A stretch of 64,000 bases of DNA from Peptococcaceae bacterium (GTDB lineage Bacteria > Bacillota > Peptococcia > Peptococcales > Peptococcaceae). The notes under the pieces are model-generated. The model was not told the origin of the DNA and did no database searches. It saw only the letters and a list, made by a program, of their open reading frames with translations. Location of the stretch: NCBI GenBank assembly GCA_017399005.1, contig JAFQEO010000009.1, positions 1 through 64,000 of the forward strand. The letters are read 5' to 3'. This document shows, piece by piece, positions 21,194-48,509 of this stretch; positions within the stretch are counted from its first letter, which is position 1, and each line of letters opens with the position of its first letter. A program made the position numbers and the translations under genes.

Positions 21194-21254
21194 AACGGAT
21201 ATCTCCTCGCTTGTATTTACTATGTTTTATTATAAGCACTTTATGTATAATAAT

Positions 21255-21290
21255 CAATCAGAGCAGAAATTTAAAATTCTGCTCTGATTG
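21255..21290 (-). terminator. Hairpin after the binding-protein gene (attenuating terminator)
   Basis: CAATCAGAGCAGAA pairs with TTCTGCTCTGATTG around a short AT-rich loop. It lies between the lipoprotein and ATPase genes, the same arrangement as in the amino acid transporter operon at 8 kb. Confidence 0.65.
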
Positions 21291-21304
21291 TCTGTAAAAC
21301 ATCT

Positions 21305-22291
21305 TTAGTTTTCAATAAAACTGGTATCTACCATTTCTGTATAGTCATACGCTTCATCCAGCAATCCGCGCTCTACCATCCAGTTGTTTACCTGTGCAAT
21401 ATCCTCTTCACCCGGGATACTGTCTGCGGTAAAGGTTGGCGTTGGATAGGTTTCTGCCAGAGCTTCCGGCACATTGGCACATTCTAAAGCAAATGCACGA
21501 TATTCTTCCGGATTGGCATTAATCATCTCAATGGCTTCGTTGTATGCTTCCAGCATAGCATCTACAGCTGCACGATTGCCGCTGATGGCATCGGCTGTTA
21601 CAGTTACAACTGACTGGGAAAAGTTTTTGCCCAGTTTTGTATCATCGATTACCACATTGGCACCTTCTGCAACCGCATAAGCTGCCAGAGGGTCCGGCAA
21701 AATAGCCGCATCAATTTCCTGTCCTTCCAGCAGAGTGGTAGTACGCAGCATTAAATCCGGCATATTTACAGTTGTAATGGCTGTTTTATCCAGCCCTAAT
21801 GTGATTTCATACTGTTCTACCAGATAATCCATCATGGTATTGTTGGAAATAGCCAGTGTTCTGCCTTCCAGATCTTCCGGAGCAGTGATCCCGCTTTCCG
21901 GTGCAGAGATTACCAGAAATCTGCCTTCTTCCGGAACAGCGCCTAATGCCATTGCCACAATACGCACATCCGTGCCGCCTTTCAGCGATAACGCAGTTAC
22001 AACAGGATCTGTCATCAGAGCATCCAGTTCACCGCCCTGCAGTGCAGTGGATAAATCACGGGCACTGCTGAAATTCTGCAGTTCAACAGTTACACCATGT
22101 TTTTCAAATAAACCTTCTTTTTCCGCCACATAGAACGGGAAGCTGTCATCAATACGCATTAACCCAACCGTTAACGGCTCCATCTGGTCCGCATTCTGTT
22201 CGTCAGTAACTGCACCGCTTCCACCGCAGCCGGTTAATAATACTGCCCCCATTAAGGCAGACGCCATAATTTTTTTCCAGTTGTTTTTCAT
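21305..22291 (-). CDS. ABC transporter substrate-binding lipoprotein (NMT1/SsuA-like)
   Basis: A signal peptide with the lipobox LLTGC ends at about residue 22, followed by a 300-residue binding fold of the NMT1/SsuA/nitrate type. Typical features are GLMRIDDSFPFYVAEKEGLF near the start and ALQGGELDALMTDPV. Partner permease, ATPase and a TauE-like gene follow. Possible ligands are sulfonates, nitrate-like anions or thiamine precursors; the TauE neighbour favours a sulfonate, which is inference. It has a good AAAGAGGAC site. Confidence 0.88.
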   Translation of the reverse strand: MKNNWKKIMASALMGAVLLTGCGGSGAVTDEQNADQMEPLTVGLMRIDDSFPFYVAEKEGLFEKHGVTVELQNFSSARDLSTALQGGELDALMTDPVVTALSLKGGTDVRIVAMALGAVPEEGRFLVISAPESGITAPEDLEGRTLAISNNTMMDYLVEQYEITLGLDKTAITTVNMPDLMLRTTTLLEGQEIDAAILPDPLAAYAVAEGANVVIDDTKLGKNFSQSVVTVTADAISGNRAAVDAMLEAYNEAIEMINANPEEYRAFALECANVPEALAETYPTPTFTADSIPGEEDIAQVNNWMVERGLLDEAYDYTEMVDTSFIEN

Positions 22292-22344
22292 AATTTTTTA
22301 TGTCCTCTTTCCCTTTATTTTACTTAATTATTACTAAATTATCA

Positions 22345-22468
22345 GGAACGCAGGATTTTTTTTGCGCAGAACGAGGCGGCTTTTGTTTTTTCGAGCGACG
22401 TGTACAAATGGTACACAAGGCGAGAAAAAACAAATACAACGCAGTTATGCACAAAAAAGACCAGTTCC
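22345..22468. repeat. Structured repeat element B (copy 1 of family shared with 39.2 kb)
   Basis: Nested hairpin. The apical stem is GTGTAC/GTACAC (22400-22405/22411-22416), then the internal loop GAGCGAC/AAGGCGA, then the stem TTTGTTTTTTC/GAAAAAACAAA (22382-22392/22424-22434). A second loop AGGCGGC/ACAACG follows, then an outer stem TTGCGCAgAAC/GTTaTGCACAA and a T7/A6 pair. The copy at 39114-39235 has the same loops with compensated stems. It ends 1 base before the nif3 stop codon and lies upstream of the NMT1-like lipoprotein gene. Confidence 0.85.
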
Positions 22469-22469
22469 T

Positions 22470-23579
22470 CTATTTATGCCAGTGTTTAAGATAATCCTGC
22501 TTTAACTCATCAAAGACGATTACTTCCAGTCCCTGTTTGCGTGCAAATGCCGCCAGCGCATCCACAATCATACGCTCTGTGCGCAAATGCCCGGCATCTA
22601 CTACACATAAATCCATTTCATCAGCTGCCTGTGCATCATGATAACGCATATCACCGGTTACATATACATCAGCGCCTGCTTTTTTAGCTGCCCCCATATA
22701 TGATGAACCACTGCCCCCGCAAAGCGCCACAGTTTTAATCTGACGGGACAAATCGCCATGATAGGTCATGTGGTCACAGGACAGTTTCGAAGCTGTGAAA
22801 TCTAAAAATTCCGCCAGTGACACTGCTTCTTTCAGCTGGCCGACACGACCGATGCCGCGGTCTTCACCGCCATTTTCCAGACGAAATACATCATATGCCA
22901 CTTCTTCATACGGATGCGCTTCTTCCATGGCACGAATCACAGCAGACAGCACAGCCTGCGGCACAACTGTTTCCAGACGATATTCTTCTGCATATTCCAT
23001 ACGACCGGCTTCACCGATAAATGGATTGGTATTTTCACCCGGAAGAAAGGTTCCGGTTCCTTTTGCCTGGAAAGTACAGCCGCTGTAATTGCCGATACAT
23101 CCCGCCCCGGCTTTACACATAGCCTGACGCACGATTTCCTCATAACCTGCCGGCACATATACAACCACTTTATAGCAGATGTCATGTGTGATATCTGCCA
23201 GAGGTTTCACCTGTTCCAGTTCCAGTGCCTGCGCCAGCACGTCATTTACACCGTCTTTTGCGATATCCAGATTGGTATGCGCACAGTACAGATTTACATC
23301 GTTGCGAATCAGTTTCAGCAGAGAACGACCTGTTGCCGTATCACTGTTAATCTGTTTCATCGAGCGAAAAATCAGCGGATGATGGGTCAGCAGCATGTCG
23401 ACCCCTGCTTCCACCGCAGCATTGACCGCATCCTCACCCGGCGATAAAGCAACCATAATCCGGCTGATTTCTTTGTTGCGGTCCCCCGCATGTAAACCTA
23501 CATTATCCCATTCTTCCGCATAATGCACCGGAGCCCACTGCTCCAGTAATTCTAAGAAAGACTGACACCTAATCGACAT
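22470..23579 (-). CDS. NIF3/DUF34-family dinuclear metal protein
   Basis: The 369 residues match the long Bacillota form of NIF3 (DUF34), which carries an inserted domain between two conserved halves. The N-terminal half has DNVGLHAGD and LLTHHPLIFR with metal-binding histidines; the C-terminal half has CGGSGSSYMG, VTGDMRYHDA and DAGHLRTER. Proposed activities include GTP cyclohydrolase I-like and metal-insertase roles; the true function is unsettled. It overlaps trmK by 28 bases, with a GGGGTGA site inside trmK, the usual trmK-nif3 pairing in Bacillota. Confidence 0.92.
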   Translation of the reverse strand: MSIRCQSFLELLEQWAPVHYAEEWDNVGLHAGDRNKEISRIMVALSPGEDAVNAAVEAGVDMLLTHHPLIFRSMKQINSDTATGRSLLKLIRNDVNLYCAHTNLDIAKDGVNDVLAQALELEQVKPLADITHDICYKVVVYVPAGYEEIVRQAMCKAGAGCIGNYSGCTFQAKGTGTFLPGENTNPFIGEAGRMEYAEEYRLETVVPQAVLSAVIRAMEEAHPYEEVAYDVFRLENGGEDRGIGRVGQLKEAVSLAEFLDFTASKLSCDHMTYHGDLSRQIKTVALCGGSGSSYMGAAKKAGADVYVTGDMRYHDAQAADEMDLCVVDAGHLRTERMIVDALAAFARKQGLEVIVFDELKQDYLKHWHK

Positions 23580-36306: not shown

Positions 36307-39042
36307 CTACTTTTCGATTACAATCTGGCATGTACTAGCTTCCCACTGCACTTTCGCACCAACCGCTTCTGCCACATAGCGAACCGGCACATAGGTGCGG
36401 CTGTTCAGAATCACCGGTGCAGTATCGAAGCCATCGATGGTTTTGCCTACGGTCATAGATAATTCCTTACCGTCAATATTGATTGTTACCACTTTTGTTT
36501 CCCCATTCCAGCCGGCAGTGCCGCCCAGAATTTCCGTAATAACACGAATTGGAACCATAGTGCGATTATCCACAATTACCGGAGCCACATCGTTTACGAT
36601 GGTTCTACCGTTTGCCAGAATGGTGGTATTGTCAATCTGCATAACGATACGTTCTGTCTGCTCCACAAACGCATATACTGCAAACGGAGACAGGCTGTTT
36701 ACATAATAAACCGCTTCCAGCCTTTTGCCGTCTTTGGACACCGTTACTTCGCCAAATTCCGCACCGCTTTCCGTAGTGTGAACGGCAACATACTGAACAT
36801 CCTTTCTGCCCACAAAAGCAGCCGGAATAATAAATTTCTGCGTTATAGTGCCGCTTACTCTGTCGGTTCCTTCCACAGAAATCTCCTGCGCACCGATTAC
36901 ATAAGCCTCATAGGTTTTGCCTTTTTCCAGACCGCTATGCGAATCTGCACCCGGGATAATTGTGCCGAGTTCGTTTTCATCCTGCTGCTGTCTCTCTTTC
37001 ACCCTGTCCGGAGTATATTCCTCGTCAAAGTATTCGAATAAAACCTTATTTTGAGTTAGATCAAAATCCATAATGTAACCTACATTATAACATTCACCGA
37101 CAGGTTTTCCATCCAGATAGAGAACATATCTCACATCCCCTTGCCACTCTTCTTTGTAAAGTATCTGATAAACTGCACCATTGATGCTGATAAATTCATT
37201 GTCAGGGAATGTCACATTCTCGTTTCTGCCGGTATATAACAGAGTATCGCCGTCATATCTGTAGGTATTGCCATTCTTGCCGTACAGCAACAACTCTTCT
37301 TCACCGCCGCCATAAATATAATACACAAGCCCATCAATCATTATCGTTTCATATAAAGTATGTTCCACACCGTCCGGTCCCAGAAAGGTGGCACTGCCAA
37401 AACCGTGAGGGATCACCGACACATCCGATAATTCTTCCTCAAACACTCTCGGAACCGTTTTTTCCGGTTTCAGGAAGTCAAGGTCATCCAGCTCCGGTTC
37501 ATGCGGTTCAACCACAAGTTCTGCATCCTTCGGCAGTTCGGTATCGCCATTCGGTTTAAAAGATACCCGGCCCGAATTCTGTCCAGAATCTTTATCCTCA
37601 TATACCAGTTCTGTTTTTTTCGGCTCAAAATCTCCTATGGAAGAACGCTTATTGACAGTCAGGGTATATTCTTCCGATGCGGAGCCGCCGCCCGTTGCAC
37701 CCATAGAAATGGTTACATTGTAGGTTCCGGCTTTGACCGGTGTACCAGATACCACACCAGTACTCTTATCAATGGTTAATCCATCCGGCAGCCCTGTTGC
37801 GTTCCAGAACACAACGCCGCTTACTTCACCGGAATAGCTGAAGCTCGCGCTGTATGCACTGCCCACGGTAGCCTCCGGCATAGAACCGGTGATTTCTATT
37901 TCACTGCCAGCCCAGTGATGCGTCACATTCACGGTGCAGGTGGCAGTATAGTTATCTAATATTGCTGTAAAGGTATAGGTAGCTGTTTTATTCGGCAATG
38001 TAACAGCCCAGCAGTCACCCCTAGCATCTGTTTTAGTTACGGTGATACTCGCATCATTGCAGGTTACACTCTCTGCAGGAACAGTTGTCATCAATGTAAC
38101 AGTACCGCCGCCACTCAAGGCTTCCGGGGATGCAAGAAGTCTAAATCCATCGGCAAACATAAACTTCTTCTCAGACAGGACAGTTTCTGTGCCGGCATTG
38201 GCGTAAACAGGAGTCTCTCCATTCTTATTTGAACCTATAGTATATGTCCAGACATTCGGATCATTGTCACTTCTGGTAAATTGATAATAACTGCCGATAT
38301 TGACATTATGCGCATATTTGTTTGTGGTTACTGTAACCGTTCCTCCGCCAATCAGATAAGACGGACTTACGGTAATAGTTAGTGGCACCGATGAATAGTG
38401 ACAAACACTACAGCCTTCCACCGTATCAACATTGTCGGTATGCACTTCTATTTGTTTGCCTTTATTTTCATCCGGGCAGTCCTGGGCAGTACATAACTTA
38501 TAATGACCAGCGCCATTGTCAAAGGTATAGACATTGCTATAGGTGTGTTCGTGTAGTTTATATACAACATAGATACCGTCAGAAATTGGAGCAAACCAGT
38601 CAAACCATGCCTCATTTTGCTCTCCATCACTTTCATACTTTTGCGGTTCTGCGGCAATGGTGTAAGTATCTACACATGAATAACTATCTGTCTCTGTCGC
38701 TTCATCATATTCATGGTGTAAAAAACCAGCAAACTCATATATCGCATCGCCAACGGTAATCGAAGAAGGAATGCCTTCTGTAGCACCAGAGAGTGCAATT
38801 TCCTTTGAAAAATCAGTGAGTGTCGGCATTATAATACCAGATGCTACTAAAATTTCTTCAGATAAATTTTCACGCTTTTCAAGTTCGTCAGCAGTAGTAT
38901 CCTCGACAACCATTACACGCAAAGGAACGGTTATCGGCTCTGCTTCTTCTCCATTTGCAAATACCGCGCCTGCCGGGGCAACGGTAAAAAGCATCATCAT
39001 TACTAAAAACATGGCTACTGGTTTCATATATCTCAATTTCAT
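36307..39042 (-). CDS. Exported protein with Ig-like (He_PIG) and C-terminal stalk (copper amine oxidase-like) domains
   Basis: The 911-residue secreted protein has a signal peptide (MKLRYMKPVAMFLVMMMLFT, cleaved near AFANG), an N-terminal region of unknown fold, and a putative Ig domain around residues 380-465 (TVGSAYSASFSYSG through SGTPVKAGTYNVTI). A beta-rich middle follows. The C-terminal 110 residues form a copper-amine-oxidase-like N domain (VIVDNRTMVPIRVITEILGG and SRTYVPVRYVAEAVGAKVQW), common in Clostridia and Negativicutes and thought to bind the cell surface. The ribosome site is AAAGAGGTG. It is the paralogue of the next minus-strand protein in both ends. The role is unknown; surface adhesion or sensing is inferred. 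Confidence 0.82.
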   Translation of the reverse strand: MKLRYMKPVAMFLVMMMLFTVAPAGAVFANGEEAEPITVPLRVMVVEDTTADELEKRENLSEEILVASGIIMPTLTDFSKEIALSGATEGIPSSITVGDAIYEFAGFLHHEYDEATETDSYSCVDTYTIAAEPQKYESDGEQNEAWFDWFAPISDGIYVVYKLHEHTYSNVYTFDNGAGHYKLCTAQDCPDENKGKQIEVHTDNVDTVEGCSVCHYSSVPLTITVSPSYLIGGGTVTVTTNKYAHNVNIGSYYQFTRSDNDPNVWTYTIGSNKNGETPVYANAGTETVLSEKKFMFADGFRLLASPEALSGGGTVTLMTTVPAESVTCNDASITVTKTDARGDCWAVTLPNKTATYTFTAILDNYTATCTVNVTHHWAGSEIEITGSMPEATVGSAYSASFSYSGEVSGVVFWNATGLPDGLTIDKSTGVVSGTPVKAGTYNVTISMGATGGGSASEEYTLTVNKRSSIGDFEPKKTELVYEDKDSGQNSGRVSFKPNGDTELPKDAELVVEPHEPELDDLDFLKPEKTVPRVFEEELSDVSVIPHGFGSATFLGPDGVEHTLYETIMIDGLVYYIYGGGEEELLLYGKNGNTYRYDGDTLLYTGRNENVTFPDNEFISINGAVYQILYKEEWQGDVRYVLYLDGKPVGECYNVGYIMDFDLTQNKVLFEYFDEEYTPDRVKERQQQDENELGTIIPGADSHSGLEKGKTYEAYVIGAQEISVEGTDRVSGTITQKFIIPAAFVGRKDVQYVAVHTTESGAEFGEVTVSKDGKRLEAVYYVNSLSPFAVYAFVEQTERIVMQIDNTTILANGRTIVNDVAPVIVDNRTMVPIRVITEILGGTAGWNGETKVVTINIDGKELSMTVGKTIDGFDTAPVILNSRTYVPVRYVAEAVGAKVQWEASTCQIVIEK

Positions 39043-39113
39043 AGTCTCACACCTCTTTCTGCTGATATGTATGCCCTCTCAGTCAGGCATAAACCTGACC
39101 GAGAGGAATATGT

Positions 39114-39235
39114 GGGCGTAGGATTTTTTTGTCGAGAGCTAGGCGGCTTTCAGATTTTCGAGCGACGCGTACTTTAAGGTACGCAAGGCGAGAAAATCTG
39201 AAAACAACGACGCTATCGGCAAAAAAGACAAGCCC
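39114..39235. repeat. Structured repeat element D (copy 2 of family shared with 22.4 kb)
   Basis: Same architecture as 22345-22468: apical GCGTAC/GTACGC (39167/39179), internal loop GAGCGAC/AAGGCGA, stem TTTCAGATTTTC/GAAAATCTGAAA (39148-39159/39192-39203), second loop AGGCGGC/ACAACG, outer stem TTGTCGAgAGC/GCTaTCGGCAA and a T7/A6 pair. Stems differ from the other copy by paired changes, while loops are identical. It ends 2 bases before the stop codon of the papain-like gene and lies upstream of its stalk-domain paralogue. Confidence 0.88.
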
Positions 39236-39237
39236 TG

Positions 39238-41754
39238 CTACTTCTCAATCACAATCTGCTGAGTCTCTGCAATCCACTCAACCTTCGCGCCTAATTTTTC
39301 AGCAATATAGCGAATCGGCACATAGGTGCGGTTATCGATGATTGTTGCACCGGTGCCGTAGCCCGGAATTTCCTCATCAATCACCAGTGTCAGTACCTTG
39401 CCATCAATGGTTAAGGTAACAGTTCTGGTTTCCGCATTCCAGTCGGCTTTGCCGCCTAAGAGTTCGGTTACAATACGCACCGGAACCAGAGTACGGTCAT
39501 CTACAATAACCGGAGCCACATCGTTGGTAATAGTTTTATTGTTTACTACAATATTTTTATTGTTAATCTGCATTACGATGCGTAAATCGATGGTAAAGGT
39601 TTCACTTGTTACGGAAGTACTGATTGTATCATCTTTTTCAATTTCCACACCATTGGCAGCTGCAATGGCTTTCACATTGCCTTTGCCCGAGCCGGTGATG
39701 GTATATACTACATAGCCGCTGCTGCCGTTCTGAGCGGTTACCTGCATGGTGAAATCACCGTTGTTGTTTTTAATTTCTGCAGTGCCGCTGTTTGTGCTGA
39801 GTGTTACCGCAGAAGCATTTTTCACTGTTGCGGAGGAAATCTTATTGCCATCCACTAAAGCCAGTCTGCCGGTCGGATTATCGATTGTGATATCATCCGC
39901 TTTATCCAGAACTGCAATTGCAGAAACCGAATCGCTGGCCTTATTCACTTTTACCTGACCGCCCGATACGGTTGGAGAAGCAGTTGCACCAGCAATATAG
40001 TATATCCTTCCTGGCGGGAACTCTCTGTCACTCACGTATGCATCTGCATCCTCTGAATAGAAATATACGATTTCACGAGCCGCAGGGATTGGATCACCTT
40101 CCGGCATAAAATCTGCATATCGGTCAATCATTGTGGAAGATGCATCCGCCTTCATCGCTTCATACGCCACCACATATTCTGTGTTGCCGCCGGAGAAGGA
40201 ATAAGTGTTTCCACTGGTATCGCCCTGCATTGTAATGGTTCCTGTTGGCGGCTTAACGGTACACTGGCCATTTTTATCAATGACTACATCAATGAATACC
40301 GGTTCACCATCGATTTTAGTGTTTCCGCCATTTCCTTCCCAGAAATATTTGTGATAACGGTTGTCATAGCCTCTCAGCGTATAGCTGCCATCGGCATGTT
40401 TTTCACCGCCGTCCAGCACGATTGCATGACCGTACTGTACCGTATTTGTTCCATTATAGTTAAAGAAATAGCTGAACATATAGCGTTCGCCGTTTACCAC
40501 ATTTTCCGCCATTGCCTGAATCATGTCGTTGCCGTCACCATACTGCATACTTCGCATAGCCGGTACAAACTGAGTCAGATAATAATAGTTCAGTAACGAG
40601 CGAACATCTTTATCGTTGTCCTGTGCCGGTGCCGGAACCGCTTCCAGCGTTTTTTCCTTGTGATACGCTCTGATATTCAGCTTATCCAGATTTGCCAGCA
40701 CTTCTACCGATGCATATCCATAGCAGGAGCCGCCCCAGCTGCTGTTTTCCTGCACTTTTACATTGTTCAGAGTGCCAATCCAACTGTTTGGATACAGCTC
40801 TTTTAACGCAGCTTCAAAGTCATCACTATATTTTCCCATGTTGTAATTACGAGGTTCTCCCGAAGCAAAGAAATCATCTGTGCTGTTGTTGAAGGAGAAG
40901 TATTCCCATTCATCTTCGTCCTGTTCTATAACCGGCGGGGTATACGAACTTACGGAAGAACCGCCGCTGCGGTATGGGGTAGCCAGAATGGTACAGGTCT
41001 TAGAGATACTATAACCACCGGTTTCATTACCCAGCAGGACGATAACGCTCAGATAACCGTCTGTGCCATTACGGTTAGACGATGTACCTGCAACGGCTTC
41101 CTGAAAACCTGTATGCTCTCCATTACCCTCAGTTAGCGGGGTAACGGTAATCGGGTTCCTGTCATTCCCAAGTTTTTCTACCAGTTCCATATATCCATCC
41201 AAGCCTGGAAGCCATTCATCCTTAATCCAGTTAGCCACTGCCTCTGGAGTATTGGCCTTAGTCATTGAAACTTCGCAGGTTGCACCTTGAATCAGTTCAT
41301 CCAGTTTCATATCCGCTGGTGAATCGTTCACTGTAATAGAAACGTCGATAGAACCGGTATAAGTATTGCCATCATTACCCGTAGCTGTAGCAGTAATGGT
41401 AACTTCTACTGCACCATTGGTCATAGCATCAGGCGCACCTTGAAGAAATGCTTCCCCAGCCCCTCTATTCTCGTTCACTTCCAGCTCGACCCCGTTTGGA
41501 AGAGTGCCGGAGCAAGACCACTCAATATTTGTAAATGTAACACTTGATGTAGTAGTCAGTTTATAATATCCTTCATTGATGCCACTGTTATCAAAGAATG
41601 TAACACCTTTTTCCATGGTTACATCCTGATTGCCGATTACACACGCATTAATGGTCTGTGTATCGTCCCCAAATGCCATTCCCACCGGCATCAGTGTAAA
41701 CAGCATCATAATTACTAAAAACATTGCTAAAGGTTTTCTATATCTCGATTTCAT
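39238..41754 (-). CDS. Exported papain-like cysteine peptidase candidate with C-terminal stalk domain
   Basis: The 838-residue secreted protein has a signal peptide (MKSRYRKPLAMFLVIMMLFT) nearly identical to that of the previous protein. A beta-rich N-terminal region is followed by a papain/C1-like domain: the nucleophile candidate C344 in SSWGGSCYGYA, H443 in YGHAIVLDGG and the D464-N465 pair in RGYDNRYHKY, in the family order Cys-His-Asn/Asp. The C-terminal 110 residues are a copper-amine-oxidase-like stalk domain (DDRTLVPVRIVTELLGG, NRTYVPIRYIAEKLGAKVEW). I start it at 41754, 9 bases after AGGAGG; an ATG 9 bases earlier abuts that site. Peptidase activity is inferred from motifs; transglutaminase-like or inactive forms are possible. 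Confidence 0.78.
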   Translation of the reverse strand: MKSRYRKPLAMFLVIMMLFTLMPVGMAFGDDTQTINACVIGNQDVTMEKGVTFFDNSGINEGYYKLTTTSSVTFTNIEWSCSGTLPNGVELEVNENRGAGEAFLQGAPDAMTNGAVEVTITATATGNDGNTYTGSIDVSITVNDSPADMKLDELIQGATCEVSMTKANTPEAVANWIKDEWLPGLDGYMELVEKLGNDRNPITVTPLTEGNGEHTGFQEAVAGTSSNRNGTDGYLSVIVLLGNETGGYSISKTCTILATPYRSGGSSVSSYTPPVIEQDEDEWEYFSFNNSTDDFFASGEPRNYNMGKYSDDFEAALKELYPNSWIGTLNNVKVQENSSWGGSCYGYASVEVLANLDKLNIRAYHKEKTLEAVPAPAQDNDKDVRSLLNYYYLTQFVPAMRSMQYGDGNDMIQAMAENVVNGERYMFSYFFNYNGTNTVQYGHAIVLDGGEKHADGSYTLRGYDNRYHKYFWEGNGGNTKIDGEPVFIDVVIDKNGQCTVKPPTGTITMQGDTSGNTYSFSGGNTEYVVAYEAMKADASSTMIDRYADFMPEGDPIPAAREIVYFYSEDADAYVSDREFPPGRIYYIAGATASPTVSGGQVKVNKASDSVSAIAVLDKADDITIDNPTGRLALVDGNKISSATVKNASAVTLSTNSGTAEIKNNNGDFTMQVTAQNGSSGYVVYTITGSGKGNVKAIAAANGVEIEKDDTISTSVTSETFTIDLRIVMQINNKNIVVNNKTITNDVAPVIVDDRTLVPVRIVTELLGGKADWNAETRTVTLTIDGKVLTLVIDEEIPGYGTGATIIDNRTYVPIRYIAEKLGAKVEWIAETQQIVIEK

Positions 41755-41806
41755 AAACTCCATCCTCCTTTATCCTTGTCTATTCCTGTTGTTTATCCAG
41801 ATTGCC

Positions 41807-47591: not shown

Positions 47592-48509
47592 ATGACAGCA
47601 GCCACTATTTACAGAGATTTTAACCGTTCCGCCATTGCCAGCAATCTGAGCGGCCGTCAGATGCAGCTCTGGCTCAAATTATACGAGTTTCTGCACAGTT
47701 ACCGCCGTCAGGATGTGCAGCTGTATACTCCAATGCTGCTGAATATGCTGAACATCAGCCTCAGCCAGTTCCGCCGTGCACGGCAGGGGCTGATTGAGGC
47801 AGGGTTTCTCTCCATCCGGCAGGATAGCCAGCAGCACACCAGTTATACATTGCTGTTAAACGGCAGGGCCATTTCGTTTGTGCCGGAAAAACAATGCGGT
47901 GAAGAAGCGGCACAGAAAAATGCGCCGGTTTGCGGGATGGGAAACCCGTCCCCTACGGGTACCAGAACCGCATATACACCGGAAAATCCTGGGATGGCAA
48001 ACCCGTCCCCTATGGGTACCAGAACCGTATATGCACCAGAAAATCGTGAGACGACAAACCTTTCCCCTGCCGCAGGGGCGGGGTCGCCCCGCCCGTTTGC
48101 ACAGGCAGAATGTTCCCGTTCGCAGTATCCATCTGGCGATATTATGTTAAACGGCGGGTATCAGGCAGATTTGCAAGAGTTTTTCCGCAGTTTTCCGGAT
48201 ACTGCCCTGTCGGGCTGGCTGCAGCAGTGGGCAGATATGCGCCGTAAAAACGGCTGGACACTAACCCGCTGGGGGCTTACCGCCCTGCTGGACAAGCTCC
48301 AGTCGCTTTCTGGCGGCAATCTGCAAACCATGGCAGCCATTGTGAAGCAATCGGTATCCCGGCGATGGAAAGGTTTTTATCCGTTAAAGGCCGAGCGCAA
48401 ACCAAGCGGCGAAAAGCTGCTCCGTATGGAACAGCAGCAGCGCAGCCGCCAGCCAATACACCAGAAGTTTAAACCGGAACAGCGGGATTTATTGTTTTTA
48501 GAGCGCTAA
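47592..48509 (+). CDS. Phage/plasmid-type replication initiator-like (DnaD-like) protein
   Basis: The 305 residues start at 47592 after AAAGGAGAGA. The N-terminal 100 form a winged helix (LKLYEFLHSYRRQDVQLYTP then LNMLNISLSQFRRARQGLIE) as in phage replisome organisers. A low-complexity linker contains two and a half tandem 19-residue units (GMGNPSPTGTRTAYTPENP type). The C-terminal domain ends SRRWKGFYPLK, typical of DnaD-like and phage replication proteins. No primase, helicase or integrase is nearby, so it is probably a relic or a domesticated copy. Function is inferred from the fold. Confidence 0.65.
   Translation: MTAATIYRDFNRSAIASNLSGRQMQLWLKLYEFLHSYRRQDVQLYTPMLLNMLNISLSQFRRARQGLIEAGFLSIRQDSQQHTSYTLLLNGRAISFVPEKQCGEEAAQKNAPVCGMGNPSPTGTRTAYTPENPGMANPSPMGTRTVYAPENRETTNLSPAAGAGSPRPFAQAECSRSQYPSGDIMLNGGYQADLQEFFRSFPDTALSGWLQQWADMRRKNGWTLTRWGLTALLDKLQSLSGGNLQTMAAIVKQSVSRRWKGFYPLKAERKPSGEKLLRMEQQQRSRQPIHQKFKPEQRDLLFLER
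47934..48103 (+). repeat. In-frame tandem repeat of 57 bp with GC-rich hairpin
   Basis: Two full units (47934-47990, 47991-48047) and a diverged partial unit. The third unit runs into GGGGCGGGG-TCG-CCCCGCCC, an intergenic-type hairpin that is here translated as part of the linker. Confidence 0.8.

Follow-up and report, generated by a model that had tools for sequence, protein, structure and literature searches.

A dispersed hairpin family with a conserved fold at gene stop codons of gut Peptococcaceae, and the case for a mobile element recognised by shape

Two places in the window (the whole 64,000-nucleotide stretch of DNA that was analysed) carry similar hairpins whose stems differ in sequence, which raises the question of what keeps the fold and what brought it to these places. 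A sequence-only reading had claimed that the two copies, called A and B here, differ by paired substitutions in the apical, middle and outer stems and share their internal loops and a g/a mismatch. On re-reading of the sequence all these paired differences were found, and the common loops and mismatch were as described. Some details were revised. The outer stems, although differing by paired changes, are not perfectly paired, since copy B has one C.A break and copy A one T.G wobble. The sequences given for the internal loops were right, but a 2-bp GC/GC helix parts GA/GA from GAC/AAG. Copy B had been placed correctly at 22345-22468, but a terminal stem (AGGAAC/GTTCCT) extends it to 22344-22470, where it reaches a TAG stop codon.

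Each copy is a single long imperfect hairpin, in which a terminal stem, an AT-rich stem, the outer stem with its g/a mismatch, a conserved internal loop and the middle stem follow one another, and above the middle stem come a tandem GA/GA, a 2-bp GC helix, GAC/AAG and an apical stem of six base pairs. The terminal stem P1 varies strongly between copies, and the variation is compensated. Folding energies of copies A and B were -47 to -55 kcal/mol, with z scores of -6.1 to -7.3 on either strand relative to dinucleotide shuffles. The features of both loci are as follows.

22344-22470, + strand: copy B, whole hairpin (covariance-model match, 126.6 bits)
39112-39238, + strand: copy A, whole hairpin (covariance-model match, 126.8 bits)
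22344-22349, + strand: copy B terminal stem P1, 5' arm AGGAAC, pairing with GTTCCT at 22464-22469
22464-22469, + strand: copy B terminal stem P1, 3' arm GTTCCT, adjoining the stop codon
22366-22372, + strand: copy B outer stem, 5' arm GCAgAAC, pairing with GTTaTGC at 22444-22450, g/a mismatch conserved
22373-22381, + strand: copy B conserved internal loop, 5' side GAGGCGGCT (family consensus AAGGCGGC; AGGC 98-100%)
22435-22443, + strand: copy B conserved internal loop, 3' side TACAACGCA (family consensus ACAAC[G/A]CA; CAAC 96-99%)
22382-22392, + strand: copy B middle stem, 5' arm TTTGTTTTTTC, pairing with 22424-22434
22393-22405, + strand: copy B apical module, 5' side (GA mismatches, GC bases, GAC loop, GTGTAC stem)
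22411-22423, + strand: copy B apical module, 3' side (GTACAC stem, AAG loop, GC, GA)
22470-22472, - strand: TAG stop codon of the DUF34/NIF3 gene, directly adjoining copy B
22470-23579, - strand: copy B host gene, DUF34/NIF3 family (PF01784)
21305-22291, - strand: next gene, NMT1/THI5-like substrate-binding protein, 53 bases past copy B
39238-41763, - strand: copy A host gene, PF07833 domain protein, its TAG stop (39238-39240) adjoining copy A

Other repeats were seen in the window. Copy A sits between two adjacent genes (36307-39042 and 39238-41763) that are duplicated in part and encode copper amine oxidase N-terminal domains (PF07833). A long inverted repeat with 49-base arms, 71% complementary, lies at 21224-21321 just past the substrate-binding protein gene, and a 57-base unit is present as a tandem pair, 89% identical, at 47934-48047.

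The earlier reading had proposed that further genomic copies be collected with a covariance model and tested for covariation. BLASTN gave 22 matches in the 2.4-Mb draft genome of the window (G000) and matches in all seven other genomes of the genus searched. A covariance model built from 17 copies recovered about 27 loci in G000, more in G001 and fewer in the draft relatives. After removal of opposite-strand duplicates, 110 non-redundant copies of about 125 bases from seven genomes of gut Peptococcaceae (metagenome-assembled genomes, MAGs) were aligned. The genomes are drafts, mostly MAGs, whose contigs may be mis-binned; this possibility applies to two adjacent copies in G011 that share one small contig. 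In a collection of 84,980 species, all matches to an exact core pattern were in MAGs of Peptococcaceae or uncultured Clostridia, most of them from the gut of ruminants. Carriage by viruses or plasmids was not borne out, as viral contigs contained no exact match to the pattern and phages and plasmids gave no match. At the gathering score the window had no match in Rfam, and relaxing the threshold for copy B gave chance-level matches only. Literature searches found no paper on this hairpin family.

Among 108 copies no conserved sequence was seen beyond the terminal stem, save a weak C at position -8; the unit is thus the hairpin itself. Variants occur as well. A deleted copy (L026, G000:C9:31261-31296) apparently lost most of its hairpin by recombination between two CAAGGCG motifs. 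Direct tandem copies with overlapping or adjoining terminal stems lie at L212 (G011:C176:171-416), L210 (G003:C7:47712-47956) and L190 (G004:C87:1891-2200). L137 (G000:C34:36404-36528), L157, L027 and L022 have an apical part of a second type, GTGAAGCGCCGCGTAC/GTACGCAAGCAAGCA, where the loop beside the apical stem differs as a block.

The covariation predicted by the earlier reading was found. In the 102 best copies, whose alignment was fitted to the model and so leans towards the structure, 94.5% of cells at the 40 modelled base pairs of five helices were paired, against 71.9% in shuffles, and pairing fell below 50% when one arm was slid. Changes on both sides were found in 38 of the 40 pairs, the covariation score was 0.589 against 0.179 in shuffles, and none of 500 shuffles reached any of the pairing or covariation measures. 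An earlier MAFFT alignment of 17 sequences, with the structure written from the fold, gave 92.8% paired against 76.5%. The internal loops are nearly invariant, with AGGC and CAAC at 96-100%. Decayed and chimeric copies do occur, but for the family overall the stems are kept and further copies abound. Covariation so strong, with the stem sequence saturated, is to our knowledge unusual for a dispersed bacterial repeat, and it provides a natural experiment on recognition by shape.

Orthologous genes, such as those for aconitase, NIF3 and secA, often carry a copy in several species with the fold intact. These copies are on average 66% alike, against 62% for random pairs; both-sided changes are frequent among them and broken pairs rare. 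Either drift under selection on the fold or replacement by other copies, or the two together, accounts for this divergence with kept pairing. Selection on the fold, as claimed earlier, is upheld by the covariation, but some double differences of the kind seen between copies A and B may stem from replacement of whole blocks, as the chimeric copy described below illustrates. The fold could also be kept by mutation rather than selection, through template switching from one arm to the other or through conversion among copies, and the excess of both-sided over one-sided differences between many orthologous copies, together with the recombination seen in the chimera, would agree with this. However, correction from arm to arm should erase mismatched internal loops, and these are the most conserved part of the element. 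Since they persist, pure arm-to-arm correction is an unlikely source of the kept pairing; conversion between copies, in turn, leaves the adjacency to stop codons unexplained. We thus regard mutational upkeep as improbable.

The position of the copies relative to genes is strict. In 98 of the 103 copies that have a gene on their 3' side, this gene runs towards the element, its stop mostly no more than 15 bases away. With gene calls made as longest open reading frames and not by a trained gene finder, 97 copies have a gene on each side, and 84 of these directly adjoin a stop codon in the one orientation, whereas 13.5 would be expected under uniform placement and random orientation. The median distance from element to stop is -1 base, and the stop codons occupy preferred positions of the element end. 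The element even encodes the last residues of some unrelated host proteins: CGGACTTGTTAA/TAG, for example, reads as RTC-stop, and RTC followed by the element's stop forms the end of NIF3 in G005 and of the host protein of copy L207. The hosts are unrelated housekeeping genes with no common function, namely hisF, secA, aconitase, a fumarase-type subunit, lipoamide dehydrogenase and DUF34/NIF3; the names other than NIF3 come from recognising the sequences rather than from a family search, secA being recognised by its C-terminal CPCGSGKKYKHCC motif. Placement this exact, after the stops of genes that have nothing to do with each other and even within an operon, suggests a strategy of inserting into safe harbours, and an enzyme responsible for it can now be sought.

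Filled and empty versions of one site were found at the hisF-hisI junction. Directly after the hisF stop, G000 and G001 carry a full element and G004 a deleted one (three species). Eight genomes, comprising G002, G003, G005, G007 and four genomes of other genera, have the junction empty, with the hisF stop and the next start a few bases apart. Comparison of filled with empty sites showed no clear target duplication. In about 0.77 Mb of G005 further host genes were found without the element. The hairpin family shares with mobile palindromic intergenic repeats the combination of dispersed copies and orthologous sites that are filled in some genomes and empty in others. That dispersed copies recombine is shown by the chimeric copy after hisF in G001: over its 5' half it matches the G000 hisF copy at 94% identity, and over its 3' half it matches copy A of the window at 89%.

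The earlier reading had left open whether the fold is selected as RNA or as single-stranded DNA. The fold itself was borne out, and the better folding of the strand antisense to the host gene leans towards the template DNA strand. This strand is the more stable one in 89 of 106 copies under RNA parameters, by about 4 kcal/mol, and in 92 of 106 under DNA parameters, by about 2.5 kcal/mol. At modelled pairs it has 200 G.T against 78 A.C, a comparison that favours the antisense strand but is suggestive only; three pairs hold most of the excess, the terminal stem shows the opposite bias, and an unmodelled internal-loop column, with C opposite G or A at 55:55, adds 55 cells against the signal. The better folding of the + strand would also suit a small antisense RNA transcribed from its own promoter. 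Among the 108 copies, however, there is no conserved sequence upstream of the terminal stem and hence no common promoter, so we find such an RNA hardly credible and lean, on modelled folding, towards a folded DNA strand antisense to the host gene, with the sense-strand RNA as its main rival.

That rival would place the fold in the mRNA, as a 3' trailer hairpin that is bound or processed by RNase III or another RNA-binding protein, or that shields the transcript end, with selection acting on the sense strand. Both strands fold strongly; the element lies directly after stops and inside the hisF-hisI operon, so that sense transcription is probable; the folds are intact at orthologous aconitase, NIF3 and secA genes; and there are known cases of palindromic repeats that are transcribed and act on mRNA (PMC2229807, PMC3049150). 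On the other side, the sense strand is the poorer folder in the same 89 of 106 copies, the G.T excess is on the other strand, and the hosts share no function. The hairpin is no intrinsic terminator either, having no T-run after the stem: a scan for terminators found none, and on both strands a T-run precedes and an A-run follows the outer stems. A role in the mRNA is possible but, in our judgement, somewhat unlikely; if the fold does act there, dozens of housekeeping genes share a common structured 3' trailer.

We give about an even chance to the reading that the hairpin is a non-autonomous mobile element whose folded single strand is recognised through the loops and which is inserted, or tolerated only, at gene ends. 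Under this mobile-element reading, we infer a recombinase that would recognise the shape of a single folded strand, which is most likely DNA and antisense to the host gene, through the conserved internal loops (AAGGCGGC/ACAACGCA, GA/GA and GAC/AAG) and not through stem sequence. Insertion, in a single orientation, would take place at the stop codon or immediately next to it, the element end sometimes supplying a new stop. The inserted copy would then be co-transcribed as a structured 3' trailer, recombine with other copies, and drift under a constraint that keeps the fold. Against this reading, no mobilising enzyme was found, with Y1 transposases absent from the copy-rich genomes G001 and G041, and intact folds occur at the same gene across species in sequences as diverged as those of unrelated copies. 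Such persistence is not required of a purely selfish element and suggests a host benefit or repeated replacement.

A second family of the same class, f6, has a related core of about 107 bases inside elements of about 165 bases with long inverted ends. Its elements are often nearly identical within one genome, have near-constant ends of 20-30 bp within each subgroup, are often bounded on both sides by CTAAG, and in several cases end at a stop codon. Judged by shared loops and placement, they are likely relatives of the Peptococcaceae hairpin. An autonomous source element was sought in f6, but the partial end matches in G041 were short remnants near genes and not ends of a larger transposon. It is a tentative and rather doubtful further suggestion that the hairpins represent a previously undescribed class of mobile DNA, spread over two or more families of clostridial gut bacteria, which combines recognition almost wholly by the shape and internal loops of one folded strand with stop-codon-specific insertion in fixed orientation, and whose enzyme belongs neither to the RAYTs nor to the integron integrases.

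Among known systems, attC sites of integrons are structure-kept imperfect hairpins beside stop codons, with a bottom strand that folds better. The hairpin family resembles them in lying next to stops in fixed orientation, in conserving structure while sequence varies, and in the better folding of the antisense strand, so that recombination of a folded bottom strand by a tyrosine recombinase was considered. Its copies, however, are single and dispersed rather than in arrays; the RYYYAAC/GTTRRRY core with invariant GTT is absent, column frequencies varying at both candidate stems; and a search for the integron integrase TIGR02249 in the draft G000 gave ten sub-threshold matches, the best at 84 bits against a cut-off of 265. 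An attC-like origin is thus very improbable. The fixed terminal inverted repeat of DDE-type MITEs is likewise absent in this genus, where the terminal stem varies freely with compensation.

REPs of the GTAG class, mobilised by RAYT, are also dispersed palindromes downstream of genes, which abut stop codons or supply them (PMC3733652), their ends often giving the neighbour's TAG stop. They are 20-40 bp long with a terminal GTAG, whereas the hairpin has 125 bases, no constant end and no fixed stem sequence; a constant terminal GTAG beside the palindrome was not found in the family. A search of nine draft genomes for Y1 transposases (PF01797) found none in G001, G002, G005, G041 and G045 (in drafts such an absence is weak evidence), two in G000 (one IS200-like element, one truncated) and one in G024. 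A REP/RAYT origin was rejected, as the matches in G000 and G024 account for no part of the family. The IS200-like Y1 transposase gene, at L037 (G000:C23) 1-640, has its own terminal hairpin at a contig end and is apparently unrelated to the hairpins described here.

ERIC, compared by description only, inserts at TA, whereas the hairpin's site is the gene stop codon. ERIC (RU-1) is a dispersed intergenic element of about 127 bp (PMC2759123) with an orientation-dependent effect on operon transcripts (PMC3049150). Pneumococcal BOX and RUP are dispersed repeats too, and 36 annotated genes have their stop codon within a BOX repeat (PMC3049150). BOX differs in being modular, and RUP in having ends that tie it to an IS630 transposase, no such source element having been found for the hairpin. 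YPAL (RU-2) of Yersinia is an element of about 168 bp with internal inverted repeats and filled and empty sites, expressed with the upstream gene and possibly affecting RNA stability (PMC2229807). The inverted repeats and site pattern are shared, but YPAL belongs to other organisms and has variable target duplications, none being shown for the hairpin, which is set apart by description only. The family is therefore of the mobile palindromic-repeat kind to which REP, ERIC, YPAL and BOX belong, without the REP end and transposase, the attC core and integrase or, in this genus, fixed terminal repeats; in comparison with YPAL, its strict one-orientation adjacency to stop codons and the saturated divergence of its stems have been measured.
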